DNA of 64,000 nt, taken from Enterobacter ludwigii. Its GTDB lineage: Bacteria > Pseudomonadota > Gammaproteobacteria > Enterobacterales > Enterobacteriaceae. Under the pieces are notes generated by a model. It saw nothing but the letters and a program-made list of their open reading frames with translations, was not told the origin of the DNA and made no database searches. Location: positions 1,550,001 to 1,614,000 of the forward strand of contig NZ_CP017279.1 in the NCBI RefSeq assembly GCF_001750725.1, given 5' to 3'. This document shows positions 6,659 to 57,863 of this stretch, piece by piece. The translations under genes were made by a program, and so were the position numbers. Position 1 is the stretch's first letter. Each line of letters begins with the position of its first letter.

Positions 6659-8590
6659 TTATCCAGAATACTTTTCAGTTAAATTCATTAAATCTTCCCG
6701 CTGATTTTTCAACGCAACGCAGGAGAAAACTTGTAATAACGCATCACAATCATCACGTTCCTGAAAGACTGAATCCAGACGCGTACTTAATGTTTTGAGA
6801 TACTCTTCATCAAGAAAGTGAACAAACTGCTCGCAGCGGACAAGATCCTCTTGTGATTCAACAGCAATTCTCTTTAACTCGTCTTCGCACGATACGGCCT
6901 GTTGCTTAAGTGATATCTGTTTCTGAAGGGATTTATTCTGCTCTACCCGCAACTCCTCGAGAATTACCCCATCTTTGGTGAGTTCGCTTTTGTATTGATT
7001 ATGGACGTTCTCTGCGGCAGCCATCCATTGTGAGGTCCACAACTGAATGACTTCCACTTTGGCATTATCAGCGGCATGGATGACACTGTTTTTATCCGAT
7101 AAATAATTCGCAGAACTAAGATAGGTGTCGATCCAGTAGTCATTGAGCCTATAGCGAATAGCACTGAAGTTTTCATCAAGAATATCCTGAACCGCCTGTC
7201 TCGTAGGTTCAACTTTGTTACGGGCCACTTTTTGCCAGTAGACCGTCTTATTTTTCACATCCAGCTGGATATTTTTAATTTTAGAGCAATAGTCGGCGAT
7301 TATGCTATGTAAAGTGGTACATTTTTCACTGCTGTAACTTCCCTTCAATTTAAAGTTTGCGGCCTCTTCCGCAGCTTTATCGATAAGCCGTCGGCTGACA
7401 GGTAAACCGTTATCTTTTAATAACCTCTCCGTTTCTTTTAATTTCTGTTGCGTCTGAGTAATAGCGTTTTTCCAAACCGTCAGTTTATCTTTTGTCTCTT
7501 GTTGCTGTTTTTTTAGCCCCAGCAGTTCTCTTTCGATTGCCGCCGTTTTTTCCTCCTGGATATATTTAACGCTGAGGTGGGTATCCAGGGTACTTCGCAG
7601 CCGTCCGAGTGGGCTTGTCGATGTTGCAATTTGTTCCAACAGTTCGCTACGCAAGTGGCTGACCATGGGGGCAACCCGGGCGTAAAGGGCGGTATCGTTT
7701 TCGGCCATACTCAGCCAACTGCTGCCAAACTCGAGCGGAAAGTAGAGGTTCCGATCTTTCGCCGCGTCGCTCAGGTTGCTAAAGCGTTCAATCTGTTCAA
7801 TAAGGCGCTGACGTAACTGCGCGATATCGATAGCCGGATCGTTGCGAATCAGCGTCTTCACCGACTGCGCTGAGTAAGAATAGGTCGTCACTATACGAAA
7901 CCGATGCGGCATCGCCTGCCAGTCCTCAATACCCGGCAGGGTGATAACCTGTGGCAGCAGGAAGCTCAAATCGTCGCCACGACCAATCAGCAGGACCAAA
8001 TCAGCGAAGGGAAGATAGGTCTTCGCCATGTGATTTACATGCTTTTGCTCTTCCATATTGGCGGGATTATCACCAGGCAGATCCAGAATACGCACGCCAG
8101 GCGCTCCCGAAGTTTTTATCCTGAAAAAACGCCTTGGAATATGCACAATACAGGGAGAATCAACAACCAGTTCACCCCGTTCCATCTGCTTTCTGAGCTG
8201 CGCTAAGGTCTCTGTCATATCGTCGTCAGAGGCAAACCAGTGCGTTTTCGATTGCACAAACAATCCCCAGCGCTGGTCCGTTGAACGACGATATTCCATG
8301 GCGGTGGCGGTGGATGATTTTCCGGCTTCCCGCCCGCCGCGTAGCACGTGCGATAGCGTTGCCATCTGCTGCAGATCGATATCCATCAGGTCGAGCAGTA
8401 AGGTGGTTTTGCCGACCTGCGTCTTACCAAATATGACCACGTACGGTTCGGCATCGCTTTCCTTAAGTTGTATCCTTTCCTGAACGTCATGACTTAATGT
8501 CTTAATCAGCCGATCGTAGGCGCGAAAAGCCCACTCCGACTGCCGTGACTCTAACCGCTGCCAATAATCAATAACTTTCCCGGACGTCAT
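6659..8590 (-). CDS. P-loop GTPase with long coiled coil, dynamin-like (GTPase operon gene 2)
   Basis: About 643 residues. A P-loop near residue 55-65 (GKTQVGKTT), a later switch II-like DLPGDN and a preceding REAGKSST switch I region point to a TRAFAC/dynamin-type GTPase. From about residue 345 the protein is largely coiled coil (EEKTAAIERELLGLKKQQQE...), like the stalk of a dynamin-like protein. ATG 8590 is chosen because GGTGAG lies just upstream and it falls one base after the preceding stop; in-frame GTGs at 8602 and 8599 have no ribosome site. I could not see a clear TKxD base-recognition motif. It is co-transcribed with a second, different GTPase. Membrane remodelling is inferred from architecture only. 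Confidence 0.65.
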   Translation of the reverse strand: MTSGKVIDYWQRLESRQSEWAFRAYDRLIKTLSHDVQERIQLKESDAEPYVVIFGKTQVGKTTLLLDLMDIDLQQMATLSHVLRGGREAGKSSTATAMEYRRSTDQRWGLFVQSKTHWFASDDDMTETLAQLRKQMERGELVVDSPCIVHIPRRFFRIKTSGAPGVRILDLPGDNPANMEEQKHVNHMAKTYLPFADLVLLIGRGDDLSFLLPQVITLPGIEDWQAMPHRFRIVTTYSYSAQSVKTLIRNDPAIDIAQLRQRLIEQIERFSNLSDAAKDRNLYFPLEFGSSWLSMAENDTALYARVAPMVSHLRSELLEQIATSTSPLGRLRSTLDTHLSVKYIQEEKTAAIERELLGLKKQQQETKDKLTVWKNAITQTQQKLKETERLLKDNGLPVSRRLIDKAAEEAANFKLKGSYSSEKCTTLHSIIADYCSKIKNIQLDVKNKTVYWQKVARNKVEPTRQAVQDILDENFSAIRYRLNDYWIDTYLSSANYLSDKNSVIHAADNAKVEVIQLWTSQWMAAAENVHNQYKSELTKDGVILEELRVEQNKSLQKQISLKQQAVSCEDELKRIAVESQEDLVRCEQFVHFLDEEYLKTLSTRLDSVFQERDDCDALLQVFSCVALKNQREDLMNLTEKYSG

Positions 8591-51692: not shown

Positions 51693-52133
51693 TTAATTTG
51701 CCCAATTAATGATTTCGTCCAGCCCTAAAAGTAGTGCAGGAAAGTAACTTTCATCCAGCCCAAGACTATCGTTAACAACTACACTTTCGGCAGGGTTTTC
51801 CGGTCTGAGAGTTAATGTCAAAAGCACACCCCGACCAACAGATGAGGGTGAAAATATCAGGTTTAACTGGTTCTCCGTACTATCAAAAACCACGTCCTGC
51901 GCTTTAACGCCATTAACTAAATTCGCATGTAAATTTTTGAGCTTATCTTTTAAAGCTCTAAGTTCACCGACATTAAAAGAAGCCTTATATTGAGCCTTAA
52001 GCTCTGGTAGCTCATACTCTACATAAGTTTGTATCCAGTCATACGCTGGGGCTTCGGGTGTATTTTCCCGCTCAAAGGGGGTAATCCGAAGTACTTTCCT
52101 GTCGCTAATTATTTCAATCATATTCAGTTCCAT
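51693..52133 (-). CDS. Candidate immunity protein
   Basis: 146 residues from ATG 52133, which overlaps the toxin stop by one base (TGATG); an in-frame ATG five codons later (MIEIISDRK) is also possible. The protein is acidic, soluble, and without known motif. A small acidic protein translated directly after a toxin-like gene is the classic immunity arrangement. The family is not recognised. Confidence 0.5.
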   Translation of the reverse strand: MELNMIEIISDRKVLRITPFERENTPEAPAYDWIQTYVEYELPELKAQYKASFNVGELRALKDKLKNLHANLVNGVKAQDVVFDSTENQLNLIFSPSSVGRGVLLTLTLRPENPAESVVVNDSLGLDESYFPALLLGLDEIINWAN

Positions 52134-53083
52134 CACTTGTATAGAAAGTGAGTTATTGTCCAGTCTTTTTCACGCACCAACACCTCTAGTGTGTATTTTT
52201 TATAAATATAGGTGCCCTTTTCTGCCCGATTCTCTACGAGTTTATATATTTCTGATTCGTAACGAAAAAGCCCAGGAACCTTTTGAGGGTCAGGAGTTCT
52301 TTTTCCGTAGCGAATAACTTTTTCCTGAAGTTGCAAAGGAACATAGCGCCCGGGATTAAGCATATGTTTAGCAGGGGTTTCAGTCATTTTAAGAGACTGT
52401 GCAGATAAGCCCATTTTCAGGCGTCCACGCAAGAGACTGATGGTAGCCTCGCTGAGTCTCACAGTTACGGCGGTTTTGACACCACTCTCCAGTAATGCTT
52501 TACCTGCGCGGAAAAGACGAAATGCGCCAAAGGCAATTAAAGCGAGGTCAGTTGGATCAATCAGAGGGGCTTCTAATGGCGCTTCTTCCAGCCTGATGAA
52601 CACACCATCAGCATCATATATCTGCCATAAACCGGGCGCCTGAGCGACGGAGTAGCCAATACACATTCCACTCTCATCATCTACGATAGGCTTAGAATTC
52701 AGTGGAGGATTGCGAGGTCGAAACTGGAAGTATTCACCGGAGGGTAAATTTGACTGGAAGGTGTAGTAGCGTCCGGGCTCGTCTGTAGCCAATCCAACAG
52801 TCATTAGCATGATTTCCTTTTGACTTAATCTTGTGGTCATCATAATTGACGTTTTCGTTTCATTCCACTTTTCATGACTTGAGCTTAAGTCGCATTTAAC
52901 GCTAACGCCTCGTTCAACCTCGCCAATACTGAAAGCAAATTTCTTCAGCGCCGACGGCAACTTACTGTCGACAAGCGTTATCAGTGGAAAGGTATGGGGT
53001 TTGCCGAACAGGCCGAGGTCGTCCGGGCGTTGACCAAGAAATACACCGTCGATTGTATCTGCATCAATTCGTGAAAAGCGCAT
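52133..53083 (-). CDS. Candidate polymorphic toxin
   Basis: 316 residues. The first ~180 form an unknown domain (MRFSRIDADTIDGVFLGQRP). A hydrophobic stretch follows (LALIAFGAFRLFRAGKALL), then a C-terminal domain of about 85 residues (NPGRYVPLQLQEKVIRYGKR; RTPDPQKVPGLFRYE; YTLEVLVREKDWTITHFLYK, each a separate piece) that matches a common toxin-tip pattern of enterobacterial Rhs, CdiA and T6SS effectors, probably an RNase of the BECR type. There is no secretion tag such as PAAR or VgrG in the window. The gene abuts a phage portal remnant, so it arrived near a broken prophage. The name is inferred from the C-terminus and partner gene. Confidence 0.55.
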   Translation of the reverse strand: MRFSRIDADTIDGVFLGQRPDDLGLFGKPHTFPLITLVDSKLPSALKKFAFSIGEVERGVSVKCDLSSSHEKWNETKTSIMMTTRLSQKEIMLMTVGLATDEPGRYYTFQSNLPSGEYFQFRPRNPPLNSKPIVDDESGMCIGYSVAQAPGLWQIYDADGVFIRLEEAPLEAPLIDPTDLALIAFGAFRLFRAGKALLESGVKTAVTVRLSEATISLLRGRLKMGLSAQSLKMTETPAKHMLNPGRYVPLQLQEKVIRYGKRTPDPQKVPGLFRYESEIYKLVENRAEKGTYIYKKYTLEVLVREKDWTITHFLYK

Positions 53084-53089
53084 AAGCGT

Positions 53090-53730
53090 GACCGGTCAGT
53101 TCATGAAGCTGGAAACCTCACCGGCCAAATACACTCGCAGTGGCGTTGAGGATGGCGTTTACTGGTACGTGTCGGACTATACGCACCCGCACCAGTTCGC
53201 CCCGGTTCGGTGTTTCTTCTGCCTGAGCCTGAGATCAATCAGGAGCTCTACAGGATGCCGGAATACCTGAGTGCTCAATTCCGCCTGGCTGAATGAATCC
53301 GCCACGTTGTTTCGTCTAAAGTATTACCAGAACGGCGCGCACGCGGGCTATATCATGTACATGACCGACGCTGTGCTCCGCGATGCGCGACTCGAAAGGT
53401 CTCGGGAATTTCAAAAACCTGTTTTTCTACGCCCCGAACGGGAAACCGGATGGCATCAAGATTGTGCCGCTGAGTTAAGTCGTCACGAAGGATGATTTTT
53501 TTAACATCAAGAAAGTAAGCGCCGCTGACCTGCTCGACGCGCACCGCGTGCCGTTCAAGCTCATGGGTGGCAAGCCTGAAAATATCGGCTCGATGGGCGA
53601 TATCGAGAAGGTGGCGCGGGTATTTGTGCGTAACGAGCTGACGCCGCTGCAGGATCGGTTTAAAGAGATTAACGATTGGTTATGAATGGAGGTGATCCGC
53701 TTTAAGGATTACAGCATCGAGACCGACTAA
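53090..53730 (+). pseudogene. Q: 3' remnant of a P2-type phage portal gene (Q)
   Basis: The C-terminal part of a P2 gpQ-like capsid portal protein can be read across several frames: LETSPAKYTRSGVEDGVYWY, then LNSAWLNESATLFRLKYYQN and GAHAGYIMYMTDAVLRDA, then HRVPFKLMGGKPENIGSMGD (each a piece), and finally MEVIRFKDYSIETD. The first half is missing, frameshifts occur near 53,200, 53,400 and 53,470, and TGA at 53683 interrupts the last part. It is dead. Orientation puts its 3' end toward the cos site, as in phage P2. Confidence 0.85.
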
Positions 53731-53832
53731 ACCCCGCCTCCGGGCGGCACATTCTGAGAGCAAGCCAGACGCCGCACACGCGACGCAAGCTTGACCGACT
53801 TCACATCACAGCGCGCCACCACGACGCGCACA

Positions 53833-53851
53833 GTGCTATCCCCGCCTCGCC
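53833..53851. other. P2-like cos site
   Basis: On the minus strand the sequence is GGCGAGGCGGGGATAGCAC, one base different from the 19-base P2 cohesive end GGCGAGGCGGGGAAAGCAC as I remember it. It lies about 100 bases beyond the 3' end of Q, the position of cos relative to Q in P2. Confidence 0.75.
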
Positions 53852-53870
53852 TGCCCGCTAAATGGGGCGG

Positions 53871-53995: not shown

Positions 53996-55942
53996 TCAAG
54001 CGCCATCCAGTAGATTGGGTGTAACACCAACGTAACGAACGTCTAAAGAACGAGCAGATGGATTGTAGTATCTACCAACAGTTAACTCAGTATCCTCATA
54101 ATCAGGATTGATCTCTGATGTTGCAAAGATTAGCTGAAAATCATGCTCATAATTAGCAGTTTCATTGACTATTATTTTTTGCAGGTTGTGACTTCGCCCT
54201 TTTTCCATACCTCCGTCATCTATTCCATCGAGCATCATAAAACGTGGAAGTCTCATATATGGTTTTTTTAAACTTGTAGTTAATAGTGCCAAATGGAAAA
54301 GATGTCGTAAAATAACCGCTGAGCTTTCTGAAAAATTCTTCGAGCCGTTGACATATACAGTATTATCTTCAAAGCTGAATTTGACTTGTTTGGGATCTAT
54401 AAACTCTGCTTGAAGATGGAAATCTTGCTTCAAAAGCCTAATGGTTGTAGATTCTATTTCATCCGAGACATCCGACTTAAGTTGTTCTTCTTTAGACTCG
54501 AGAAATTCTATATAACTTTCCAGCCTTTCCTTCTCGGATTGGAGTCCATCTCTTGACCGTTGAAGATCCTCAATTACCGAATTAAGTTTCTGATGCTCAT
54601 AGGCCTGATCTATTGCTGCATCAATAGCGCCCAATTCCCTTGAGATGTTTTCGAACTCAATTTCATAAACAGTCTGCCAATTATTAGAGACGGAATTATA
54701 TTCTTCAGTTAAATTTTTAAAATTTTTCTTTAATACTGGTGAGTTTTTCTTTAACTTTTGAAGCTCTTTATTTTTGTGCTCTAATAAAAACTTTGACTCT
54801 TTTAGCTGAATAGCTATTTCATTCTTCATTCTTAATAATTTAGACGCACCATCTCCATCATCTAAATCAGACTTGCATAAATGACAACTAGCATCATTCT
54901 CCGAGTGAAGTTCACTTAGACAACTCGGACAAAATTGAAATTGCACTCCATTAAAATATTCTCTAGCCTTGCCAGATTCATTGAGATTGCGCAACCTAGA
55001 CTCTAACTCAGCTATAAACATGTCCGAATCAGAAATATCAAATGTAAGACGATCTATTTCGTCTCTATTTTTAAGCTCAAGAGATTTTGCTTTATTGAGG
55101 GCCTTTCTTAACGCTTCTGTTTTTTCTTTATCATCCTGTAAAGCATCACTTCTGTCCACCTTACCGAATTTAATCTCATTAAGCTTTGTAAGCAGTTCTT
55201 CTTTTTTTATTTTTAAATCTTGAATACGTTCGTCAATAAAATGAATGTTTTCAGACTGCCCAGAACGACCTAAAACTTTAAATATACTCTTAAGTTCACC
55301 AATGCTTTTAGTTAAATCAGAATCAACCTGCTTCAACCGAATCTGAGAAGTATACAACTCATCATCATAAATACCACAGAGATAATCGCCAACAGTTTCA
55401 CGAGTCAAAGCTCGATCAAAACTATCCACACGAAATATAGGACTATGAAGCGATGGTTGATCAGCATATAAAACACGCAAGATCTGATGCATCGTCAGTA
55501 TCGAAGCACCATCCCCTTGGGCTAATGGCATACCTAATAAGTTGAAAATTACTTGAGAAAAACTTAATGATTTCTCAGAACGTTTGAAGGGGTGCTTTTG
55601 CCACTCACTAGGTGCTGATTTCAATGCTGATTCAATTCCACCCATATAAAAAACAATGGGTTTTTGATGTTCATTAGCAACTAACTCTCGCTTGAAGCAT
55701 ACAGGAACATCATTAAGATAGACTTCAGTTAATGTTTCAGTACAGAGTAAAGCCTCCGGTTTCCATGGGATATTTTCGGCCCCCAAGGAATAAGCAAGCA
55801 AATCCATAATAGTAGTTTTGCCTGAGCTATTACGACCACGAAGGACATTAACACCTTTATGAAATTTACAACTAAATGCCTGATGTCCCTTTTGAAAAAC
55901 CCTTAGTTCACTGACTCGAAATGTTGGACTAAGAAAAGTCAT
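53996..55942 (-). CDS. SMC/Rad50-like ATPase with central zinc hook (ABC-3C-like operon gene 4)
   Basis: 648 residues. Walker A at 36-44 (GRNSSGKTT); coiled coils at about 200-330 and 365-510 flank a zinc-hook-like pair CPSC (338-341) and CHLC (353-356); a signature-like SESSAVILRHL and Walker B MMLDGIDDGG near the C-terminus complete an ABC-type head. Such ATPases sense or bind DNA ends or phage structures in Lamassu and ABC-three-component systems. Its start overlaps the preceding gene by 14 bases. The DNA is strongly AT-rich compared with the core. It is the last gene of the operon behind the P2 cos site. A defence role is inferred from family and location. Confidence 0.75.
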   Translation of the reverse strand: MTFLSPTFRVSELRVFQKGHQAFSCKFHKGVNVLRGRNSSGKTTIMDLLAYSLGAENIPWKPEALLCTETLTEVYLNDVPVCFKRELVANEHQKPIVFYMGGIESALKSAPSEWQKHPFKRSEKSLSFSQVIFNLLGMPLAQGDGASILTMHQILRVLYADQPSLHSPIFRVDSFDRALTRETVGDYLCGIYDDELYTSQIRLKQVDSDLTKSIGELKSIFKVLGRSGQSENIHFIDERIQDLKIKKEELLTKLNEIKFGKVDRSDALQDDKEKTEALRKALNKAKSLELKNRDEIDRLTFDISDSDMFIAELESRLRNLNESGKAREYFNGVQFQFCPSCLSELHSENDASCHLCKSDLDDGDGASKLLRMKNEIAIQLKESKFLLEHKNKELQKLKKNSPVLKKNFKNLTEEYNSVSNNWQTVYEIEFENISRELGAIDAAIDQAYEHQKLNSVIEDLQRSRDGLQSEKERLESYIEFLESKEEQLKSDVSDEIESTTIRLLKQDFHLQAEFIDPKQVKFSFEDNTVYVNGSKNFSESSAVILRHLFHLALLTTSLKKPYMRLPRFMMLDGIDDGGMEKGRSHNLQKIIVNETANYEHDFQLIFATSEINPDYEDTELTVGRYYNPSARSLDVRYVGVTPNLLDGA

Positions 55943-56429
55943 ATCGATACTCCATTAGCTGTGTTCTATCCTTTAAACCATCCTTACCTAGCAGATGAAA
56001 CTGTGAAAGTTTATCAATGATAAAATCATATATTTTTGGTTTTTCATTTAGGAAACTTTTCATTTCAAGCAATAATCCATCAGGTATTTCCATTTGAGTT
56101 CTAATAATAACACCATGCTCTAACTTTTCCATATCTATAAGGCCAGCTGCCGCAAGACACTTAAGCGCAGAGATTTGAATTTGATGCATATCACGAAAAG
56201 TTGCCAATGGGCTTATTGGATCTCTATACTCATTAATATACTTCTTAGCCTCTGCTTTAGCATCATTATGAGTTGCAGGCATTCTAATCTTTGATACTAA
56301 TGAAGGGAAAATCATATAAAAATCCAAAATGCGTATTTTTTCTACTTCAACTGTATTTAAATGATCACTAAGCGCGATCATGCGAAATAGACAATGATAT
56401 GCATCAAATGCAGGATGATAAATTAACAT
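55929..56429 (-). CDS. ABC-3C middle-component-like protein (gene 3)
   Basis: 166 residues, helical, with a likely winged-helix core (SPLATFRDMHQIQISALKCLAAAGL, in part; GVIIRTQMEIPDGLLLEM). The size and position, between a CTD-like gene and an SMC-like ATPase with overlaps of 7 and 14 bases, match the middle component of ABC-three-component systems described by Krishnan, Burroughs, Iyer and Aravind. Without a search I cannot fix the MC subtype. Confidence 0.6.
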   Translation of the reverse strand: MLIYHPAFDAYHCLFRMIALSDHLNTVEVEKIRILDFYMIFPSLVSKIRMPATHNDAKAEAKKYINEYRDPISPLATFRDMHQIQISALKCLAAAGLIDMEKLEHGVIIRTQMEIPDGLLLEMKSFLNEKPKIYDFIIDKLSQFHLLGKDGLKDRTQLMEYRYDFS

Positions 56430-57007
56430 TTATCCCACCTTATATGACAATTTCCACCAAGAAAGAATAACAGACCCAATAAATCAATAGCTGTTAGCTC
56501 GAGAAGATTCTCGCCTAATGTTGAATAAAGGGAGTCAATGATCTGACTTATTTTATCATCGACTGTAATTCTATCGCTGTCACCTTGTATTAGTGGGGTA
56601 ACCTTTAATAGAAAATCAAAATATATGCGATCAAGTAATAATACAAATATTCTTTGTGCTGTTTTAGAAGTTTGTCGCTTCATAATGGCTTTGGTCGCTT
56701 GCTCTTTCATAAGCTTCGCAGCCATTAATAAATCATTACGATCACCATCAGCTAGCTTAGCATCAAGTCCCCTGACGTCAGTTTCAGTCTGTGGCGTCAT
56801 GTAATGATTAAGTTTTTCACAAAACTCAACGCTACGCTCACCAACACCATCTATCTTTAAGCGTTCATATAAATCAAGGAGCTCTCTACTTATACCTTGA
56901 TGTGCATAAAAATGATTATGCTGGTCACGGCCGACAATACTTCCGCCGCCATCGACTTTATTGCCTTTCTGTTGCGTAAGTTGCTCTGATTGGTGAGAGG
57001 TGAACAC
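56423..57007 (-). CDS. ABC-3C C-terminal-domain-like protein with GSIVGRDQ motif (gene 2)
   Basis: 194 residues. A short N-terminal region holds NKVDGGGSIVGRDQHNHF, then a helical domain of ~160 residues (ISRELLDLYERLKIDGVGER; TELTAIDLLGLLFFLGGN-like end) that fits the ABC-3C C-terminal domain. In most systems an effector domain is fused to its N-terminus; here only the short motif stands there, and the same motif ends the small membrane protein upstream (57019). This suggests the effector is a separate chain recruited through the motif. The start is ATG 57007. Confidence 0.6.
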   Translation of the reverse strand: MFTSHQSEQLTQQKGNKVDGGGSIVGRDQHNHFYAHQGISRELLDLYERLKIDGVGERSVEFCEKLNHYMTPQTETDVRGLDAKLADGDRNDLLMAAKLMKEQATKAIMKRQTSKTAQRIFVLLLDRIYFDFLLKVTPLIQGDSDRITVDDKISQIIDSLYSTLGENLLELTAIDLLGLLFFLGGNCHIRWDKC

Positions 57008-57018
57008 AACCTAACCTC

Positions 57019-57213
57019 TTAATGATGAGAATCAGATTGATCACGACCAACAATGCTACCGTTCGATACTTTGTTTCGGTTTTGACTCACGTTGTAGTTA
57101 TTGTCGTTTGATTTAACCTCAACAGCGGTTTTACGAGATGTATAGACAACACGAAGAGTCCAACCAGCCCCTAAACCAGCTAAAAGAGTAATGATGTGAG
57201 TAACCCATTCCAT
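57019..57213 (-). CDS. Small membrane protein with C-terminal GSIVGRDQ motif (gene 1)
   Basis: 64 residues: one membrane helix at the N-terminus (VTHIITLLAGLGAGWTLRVV), a short Lys/Asn-rich linker and a C-terminal NKVSNGSIVGRDQSDSHH. The last part is nearly the same as the N-terminus of the next gene, 11 bases away. Small single-helix proteins in defence operons are often membrane-damaging effectors. AAGGAG-like bases (CTTATAGGG on this strand) lie upstream. It is the first gene of the operon. Confidence 0.6.
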   Translation of the reverse strand: MEWVTHIITLLAGLGAGWTLRVVYTSRKTAVEVKSNDNNYNVSQNRNKVSNGSIVGRDQSDSHH

Positions 57214-57863
57214 TCAAAAAGTCCCTATAAGGAGTTAAAGTCACAGAACATCATAGAGATTATCAATAACATGCACAACAATAAGACGAATGGATATTCT
57301 ATAATTTTTGATATTGTGATTCCCCACACCCAAACCACTGTTTAAATATACAGTTGATATCATTTTTTTTCTATACCTATCTTACAAATTTTACAAATTT
57401 CACATAACAAATTGATTTTAAATCATTTTTTTTGCTTTGTGTTCCACTATTCAGTATGAAGCTTTAGCCCTGACGATTCCAATCTCCTGCTACTACCTGA
57501 ACATTTTGCTGCAATGTGCCACGGTTCAATACACTCCTGAGCACCGTCACAACTTCCGTGTCATCCCATCCCACAACTCAACTATCAACCAAATTTAATA
57601 CCGCTGCGGCTTGCCCAGAAAGCGAACACGCCATAACTGGATAGCCATCGCTGGTGAGCTTTCCACAGTTATTAACAGGACTCCGAGGCGCGGCCATGCC
57701 GCTTTTTAAAGTCAAAGGCTCAACAACCAAAAACTGTGGAACGATGCGTCATTCGACTACTCAGGTAATTTGTACCAGCTCGGAGTCCAAATGCTGGCCG
57801 TAAATGCCCCCACGCTTTCCCTCGCAGGAGTGCTTCCACAGATTTCCATTTACACCAGACATT
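57214..57863. other. AT-rich gene-free stretch upstream of the ABC-3C-like operon
   Basis: About 650 bases. The left 230 are very AT-rich with T-tracts and should carry the operon promoter. The right part has enterobacterial composition but no convincing gene on either strand; it may be residue of the lost prophage. I see no attachment-site repeat matching the other side. Confidence 0.45.

Follow-up and report, generated by a model that had tools for sequence, protein, structure and literature searches.

Results

Layout of the cassette

The subject of this work is a cassette of four genes in a 64,000-nucleotide stretch of the Enterobacter ludwigii genome (assembly GCF_001750725.1, contig NZ_CP017279.1, positions 1,550,001 to 1,614,000; hereafter the window, in whose own numbering all coordinates are given). 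All four open reading frames (ORFs) of the ORF list are intact and lie on the minus strand at 53996-57213, transcribed in the order gene 1 (57019..57213, 64 aa), gene 2 (56423..57007, 194 aa, GTG start), gene 3 (55929..56429, 166 aa) and gene 4 (53996..55942, 648 aa). An earlier note made from the letters of the DNA had described an AT-rich operon of four overlapping genes at this place. The operon and its composition were confirmed, with a GC content of 33-42% inside it; most of the windows on either side have 50-62%, and those around 51.5-53.2 kb have 40-50%. Overlaps were found at two of the three junctions, gene 2/3 (7 nt) and gene 3/4 (14 nt), and the first junction, gene 1/2, is an 11-nt gap. 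Each cassette protein matches a phage protein family over nearly its full length, and the same four genes stood in identical order in 17 of 17 related viral loci found in a first search for relatives. What is new here is a matching motif shared by the tail of the small membrane protein encoded by gene 1 and the head of the gene 2 protein.

Genes 2 to 4 form a Lamassu/ABC-3C core

Profile searches matched gene 2 to the ABC-3C C-terminal domain (CTD) family CTD9 (6.7e-28; domain at 56435..56770, minus strand) and gene 3 to the ABC-3C middle component (MC) family MC5 (1.4e-52), an LmuC-like middle component. The two proteins had been called CTD-like and middle-component-like before, and these matches speak against their belonging to unrelated housekeeping families. 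Their predicted folds resemble the C-terminal domain of LmuA and LmuC, respectively. Gene 4 encodes a Rad50/SMC-like ATPase that matches the PADLOC model of LmuB over residues 5-574 (3e-45), AAA_23 (6.1e-06) and PHROG 1637 (1.4e-200). The landmarks by which it had been recognised as SMC-like, all on the minus strand, are a Walker A motif (residues 36-44, 55811..55837), two CxxC pairs, CPSC...CHLC (residues 338-356, 54875..54931), and a Walker-B-like stretch (residues 569-578, 54209..54238) with Gly after the Asp. All four cysteines of the CxxC pairs were invariant in 51 of 51 aligned ATPases, as was the Walker B Asp, which was followed by Gly or Asn in 48 of the 51, by a gap in three and never by Glu.

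The family matches of genes 2 to 4 together with the predicted folds of genes 2 and 3 therefore assign the cassette to the Lamassu/ABC-3C superfamily, in which, judged by homology and modelling, gene 2 is an LmuA-like protein devoid of the catalytic part. The cassette has the LmuB-like ATPase with Walker A and cysteine hook, the middle component and the CTD docking domain of this superfamily; it has a separate transmembrane gene instead of an LmuA N-terminal effector on the same chain. Pfam, PADLOC and NCBIfam searches named no effector domain in gene 2, PADLOC found no LmuA in genes 1 to 3, and family and PADLOC profile searches gave no other effector domain in the four proteins. The usual killing domain thus seems to have been replaced by a tiny, separate membrane protein.

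Gene 1 is a candidate membrane effector

A hydropathy scan of gene 1 gave one hydrophobic segment (residues 7-23; 57145..57195, minus strand), which agrees with the one-helix protein of 64 residues described in the earlier note and makes it a predicted single-pass membrane protein and the candidate effector. Gene 1 matches PHROG 17975 (4.5e-24) and has homologues in Salmonella and Morganella. None of the PADLOC models matches it, and the 12 E. coli records listed label its relatives as hypothetical, so that so small an effector gene is easily missed; in the RefSeq annotation of the E. coli version, genes 2 and 3 are called ABC-three component proteins and gene 1 is again hypothetical. As a side observation, one E. 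coli record of 4,312 bp (NZ_CP159690.1, hit H46) holds the whole four-gene operon, although the strain's chromosome, deposited as a record of its own, also bears it; the short record could be a small circle or an assembly artefact.

The two proteins share a motif that matches within loci

The tail of gene 1 and the head of gene 2 share the short motif NKV..GSIVGRDQ. Its first copy, NKVSNGSIVGRDQ, occupies residues 47-59 of gene 1 (57037..57075, minus strand), whose C-terminal end reads NKVSNGSIVGRDQSDSHH, and its second copy, NKVDGGGSIVGRDQ, occupies residues 16-29 of gene 2 (56921..56962, minus strand), whose N-terminal start reads ...NKVDGGGSIVGRDQHNHF. When relatives were compared side by side, the motif varied among loci and matched inside each locus, as in the pairs GDMSAGDMN/GDMAARDIN (L018; locus numbers are ours), GDIFIG/GDIFIG (L023), NGDYTGRDK/NGDYVGRDK (L108), HNGDNHF/HNGDNIF (L021) and GPYAGRD/GPYAGRD (L043).

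This matching was analysed in loci that had been collected with no selection for the motif, since the only query was a conserved C-terminal peptide of the CTD. It returned 53 loci from genomes and 26 from viruses, with the 17 of the first search among the viral ones; the full set of 104 loci, in which some viral loci occur twice, was reduced to 63 representatives below 85% CTD identity, window included. The upstream ORF was chosen by a fixed rule (same strand, adjacent, with a hydrophobic segment), which 57 of the 63 representatives passed; L024, L050, L056, L073, L078 and L079, in which the rule finds no hydrophobic upstream ORF, were left out of the permutation test. In seven of the 57 loci tested (L036, L047, L054, L064, L065, L072 and L083) the rule chose the wrong gene or none fits, which biases the test against the motif-matching result. 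When the C-terminal 40 residues of gene 1 were aligned locally with the N-terminal 70 of gene 2, own pairs scored 53.6 on average and cross pairs 27.3 (z 20), and none of 10,000 permutations reached the own-pair mean, the highest being 33.2. The same outcome was obtained among 17 loci below 40% CTD identity (47.5 own, 23.6 cross). In 22 of 57 loci the own partner scored highest in its row, and in 42 it was within the best five, often falling short of the top because related loci share motif types. Furthermore, when partners were exchanged between two loci, for all 1,596 pairs of loci, the total score fell in 1,564, rose in 28 and stayed equal in four. Two controls gave no such difference: the first 35 residues of gene 1 scored 17.3 (own) and 17.7 (cross) against the gene 2 head, and the gene 1 tail scored 19.4 and 20.2 against the CTD core.

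In the 49 loci with a clear pair, the same codon was used at 209 of 558 identical degenerate residues, where codon usage predicts 238.7, indicating that the likeness is held at the protein level and does not stem from a recent duplication or conversion of DNA. Relative to the CTD core, Asn, Gly and Val are enriched in the motif, and Leu, Glu, Pro and Cys are depleted. Three published BASS/RHIM peptides did not score clearly above their own shuffles against the motif profile.

Motif pairs and extended CTDs on the same core

A pair was called clear when at most 5 of 200 shuffles scored as high. By this rule 49 of the 63 representatives had a clear pair and one was borderline (L077); six more were matched on a second look, five by score (L036, L054, L056, L073 and L078) and one by eye (L047), which brings the loci with a matching pair to 56 of 63. 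Among the 63 representatives, two (L024 and L083) had neither a motif pair nor an extended CTD, and the remaining five (L050, L064, L065, L072 and L079) had CTDs with long N-terminal extensions and no motif pair. The extension of L065, on a CTD9-MC5 core with a patatin-like gene upstream, matches profiles of defence HNH/endonuclease effectors, and that of L079 resembles it and has a weak HNH_2 match. The extension of L050 is similar to the N-terminal region of LmuA (1.2e-09), and those of L064 and L072 resemble it; this group is trypsin-like by resemblance, with no trypsin domain assigned by Pfam to L050 or L072. A gene with the metallo-beta-lactamase (MBL) fold lies upstream of L064 and, by resemblance, upstream of L072. 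These extended CTD9 proteins would be alternative effectors on the same core.

The motif-bearing anchors themselves are diverse, forming clusters of 17, 14, 7 and 2 members and 12 singletons (BLAST, E 1e-3), with one or two hydrophobic segments before the motif depending on the anchor. L082 (7516-7851) and L073 (about 7517-7876) share an upstream family of about 111 aa (KIGEGTSRKIGEDIW) that has motif tails and is unlike the small transmembrane anchors; it might be a Bell-like effector. Such diverse anchors on a conserved core point to a motif that behaves like a plug, joining exchangeable upstream proteins to the sensor core. In one Pseudomonas locus (L033, 8459-8972) the middle component was matched as two separate ORFs and is possibly broken.

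Distribution, and motif pairs beyond ABC-3C

The cassette is rare among the genomes surveyed: relatives of gene 2 were found in 5 of 394 genomes of the order, and CTD9 in 6 of 398 genomes of the phylum, five of them above the cut-off. The phyla to which we assign the loci of the motif type include Pseudomonadota, Bacteroidota, Acidobacteriota, Verrucomicrobiota and Desulfobacterota.

Scanning viral contigs for GGDVVGRDK-like DNA gave 10 stretches (L115-L124). Two of them (L116 and L121) are further four-gene loci, and two (L115 and L123) are located on the contigs of L107 and L110. L119, close to the end of its contig, has a gene 1 resembling the one in L110, and in L120 a transmembrane-like ORF carries the motif towards its end. 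A single protein of L122 has the motif in its interior, and no partner for it was found; L118 has no motif-bearing ORF. In the last two, a GD(V/M)VGRDK / GDMVGG-like motif stands at the C-terminus of one protein and at the N-terminus of another, the two being encoded by adjacent genes in L117 (3156-3829) and with one gene between in L124 (2525-3743). CTD9, MC and ABC genes were undetectable in L117 (5.7 kb) and L124 (3.9 kb), both short stretches.

These last loci bear on an alternative, in which the motif copies, instead of binding each other, both dock in one shared groove on the ATPase or the middle component and gene 1 competes with gene 2 for the core or replaces it there. Such docking, too, would be expected to yield two similar peptides that vary in step with the core proteins, and gene 2 presumably touches the core, as LmuA does. 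Motif pairs next to no detectable ABC-3C gene are, short as the stretches are, evidence against a docking site on the ATPase or middle component, and the five extended CTDs, which should use the same core, have no motif pair. We consider a shared groove unlikely.

A decayed P2-like prophage around the cassette

The earlier note had placed the operon next to a P2-like cos site and the portal gene Q. A P2-type cos-like sequence does lie at 53813..53870 (plus strand; blastn 86% over 58 bp to phage pro483), and the portal gene is there in pieces in different frames (53073..53727, plus strand). A terminase (P) fragment at 52973..53071 (plus strand; 33-aa match, 4e-06) and, on the other side, a fragment of the P2-type replication gene A at 57497..57808 (minus strand; 62.5% over 104 aa) complete the remains, so the cassette occupies, beside cos, the slot between gpA and gpQ that cassettes of the P2 Q-A (old/tin) hotspot occupy. 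The surrounding P2-like prophage is a decayed remnant, which adds to the earlier picture and sets the window copy apart from the hotspot cassettes of P2-like phages. That the phage genes are decayed and the cassette is intact suggests, though it does not prove, that the cassette has been retained for its own use.

A survey of Q-cos loci had been proposed along with the claim that P2-like phages swap defence genes in this slot. P2-type A and Q both flank 17 of the 26 related viral loci, three have one of the two and six have none within the stretch examined; of the 53 loci from genomes, only L032 had a P2-type A, Q or terminase gene nearby. The gpA-gpQ hotspot of P2-like phages is in print, in section 10 of PMC9122126 and in PMC9519451. 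That section names no SMC cassette among the protective systems, and the legend of Figure 4 in the same paper (Rousset et al. 2022) explains the labels TM and SMC; on account of these labels, a cassette of such kind may already be in the catalogue of PMC9122126.

Two minus-strand ORFs at 51693-53083 lie beside the portal remnant. One encodes a WapI-like immunity protein (PF24716, 8.6e-15), and the other, a 316-aa protein with no convincing family match, may be its partner.

Discussion

Proposed mechanism

Our analysis favours, with fair confidence, a defence cassette of the Lamassu/ABC-3C type with a split-off effector, in which the motif pair takes the place of the covalent link that joins effector and docking domain in ordinary Lamassu. 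The earlier note had already proposed that the effector was split into a membrane protein; the motif pairing, absent from that note, lends sequence support to the proposal. By family, the LmuB-like gene 4 and the LmuC-like gene 3 would sense foreign DNA and hold gene 2, which would serve as an LmuA-like docking and oligomerisation domain. LmuA is reportedly liberated on activation and forms a homotetramer that switches on its nuclease (PMC12409362, addendum). Applied to gene 2, which has the corresponding domain and no enzyme, this would mean that gene 2 is released upon sensing and oligomerises, so that several copies of the motif are presented together; these clustered N-terminal motifs could bind the matching motif on the tail of gene 1. 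A homotypic, possibly amyloid-like assembly of BASS/RHIM type might then cluster gene 1 in the inner membrane, and clustered gene 1 could damage the membrane and lead to abortive infection. The recurrence of the tag pairing in distant bacteria suggests that the tags adhere to each other and so relay the alarm, and homotypic pairing of the motifs is likely. The architecture is like that of BASS, but the three published peptides were not clearly above their shuffles; amyloid templating by the motif is for this reason the bolder reading, and we hold it to be somewhat less than an even chance.

The motif is short, and the only helix of gene 1 in the window is weakly hydrophobic, as one would expect if the pair were a simple peptide-peptide contact that does not polymerise and ties the complex at rest to the membrane, with gene 1 as an anchor or localiser rather than the killer. 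Such a tether would need another killer, yet the profile searches gave no further effector domain in any of the four proteins; moreover, the second motif-like copy seen by eye in gene 1 of L023, L041 and L066 fits a multivalent assembly. A mere tether therefore appears improbable, at roughly one chance in five. Gene 1, being small, separate and similar in its tail to the head of the CTD protein, could also be an inhibitor of the complex, antitoxin-like or conferring self-immunity, held by motif mimicry until infection. This is very improbable, as the motif-bearing gene 2 of the window lacks a toxic domain and no upstream motif partner was found in the five extended-CTD loci.

More broadly, and tentatively, the loci may represent a class of NLR-independent amyloid-like signalosomes, in which SMC-type DNA sensors of the Lamassu/ABC-3C kind work with interchangeable membrane effectors via a short self-templating motif, in several bacterial phyla and in P2-like phages; motifs of this sort would also connect the products of other phage gene pairs. 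A review (PMC7889193) asks whether bacterial signalling amyloids exist in NLR-independent pathways. Our loci are a concrete, small candidate for such amyloids; they suggest a way for a Lamassu sensor to act through a membrane effector, and that a detachable tag, rather than gene fusion, may allow effectors to be exchanged.

Comparison with known systems

Literature searches gave, among the matches listed, no paper tying Lamassu or ABC-3C to amyloid or to motif-coupled membrane effectors, with the first description of ABC-3C and the Lamassu structure papers of 2025 outside their scope; nor was literature from 2022 onwards found that joins amyloid, transmembrane and Lamassu. The cassette resembles type II Lamassu/ABC-3C systems (LmuA-LmuC-LmuB; DdmABC) in its LmuB-like ATPase, its LmuC-like component, its LmuA-type C-terminal domain and the order of these genes. 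It differs from them in that the LmuA-like protein has no catalytic N-terminal domain and carries instead an N-terminal motif, accompanied by a separate small membrane protein bearing the same motif. Trypsin-MBL pairs have been reported in Lamassu (PMC12799240); L050, L064 and L072 resemble these variants, and L065 and L079 resemble variants with HNH effectors, in all of which the effector is fused to the CTD, whereas in the window cassette it would be joined through the motif. Lastly, bacterial amyloid signalosomes are proposed (PMC7889193) to have a motif at the C-terminus of a membrane effector and at the N-terminus of its partner, encoded by adjacent genes. The likeness to the two-gene BASS signalosomes (Bell effector and NLR) lies in this match of effector C-terminus and partner N-terminus in neighbouring genes; the difference is that the partner is here not an NLR but the CTD9 protein of an SMC-type ABC-3C complex, together with MC5 and an LmuB-like ATPase.

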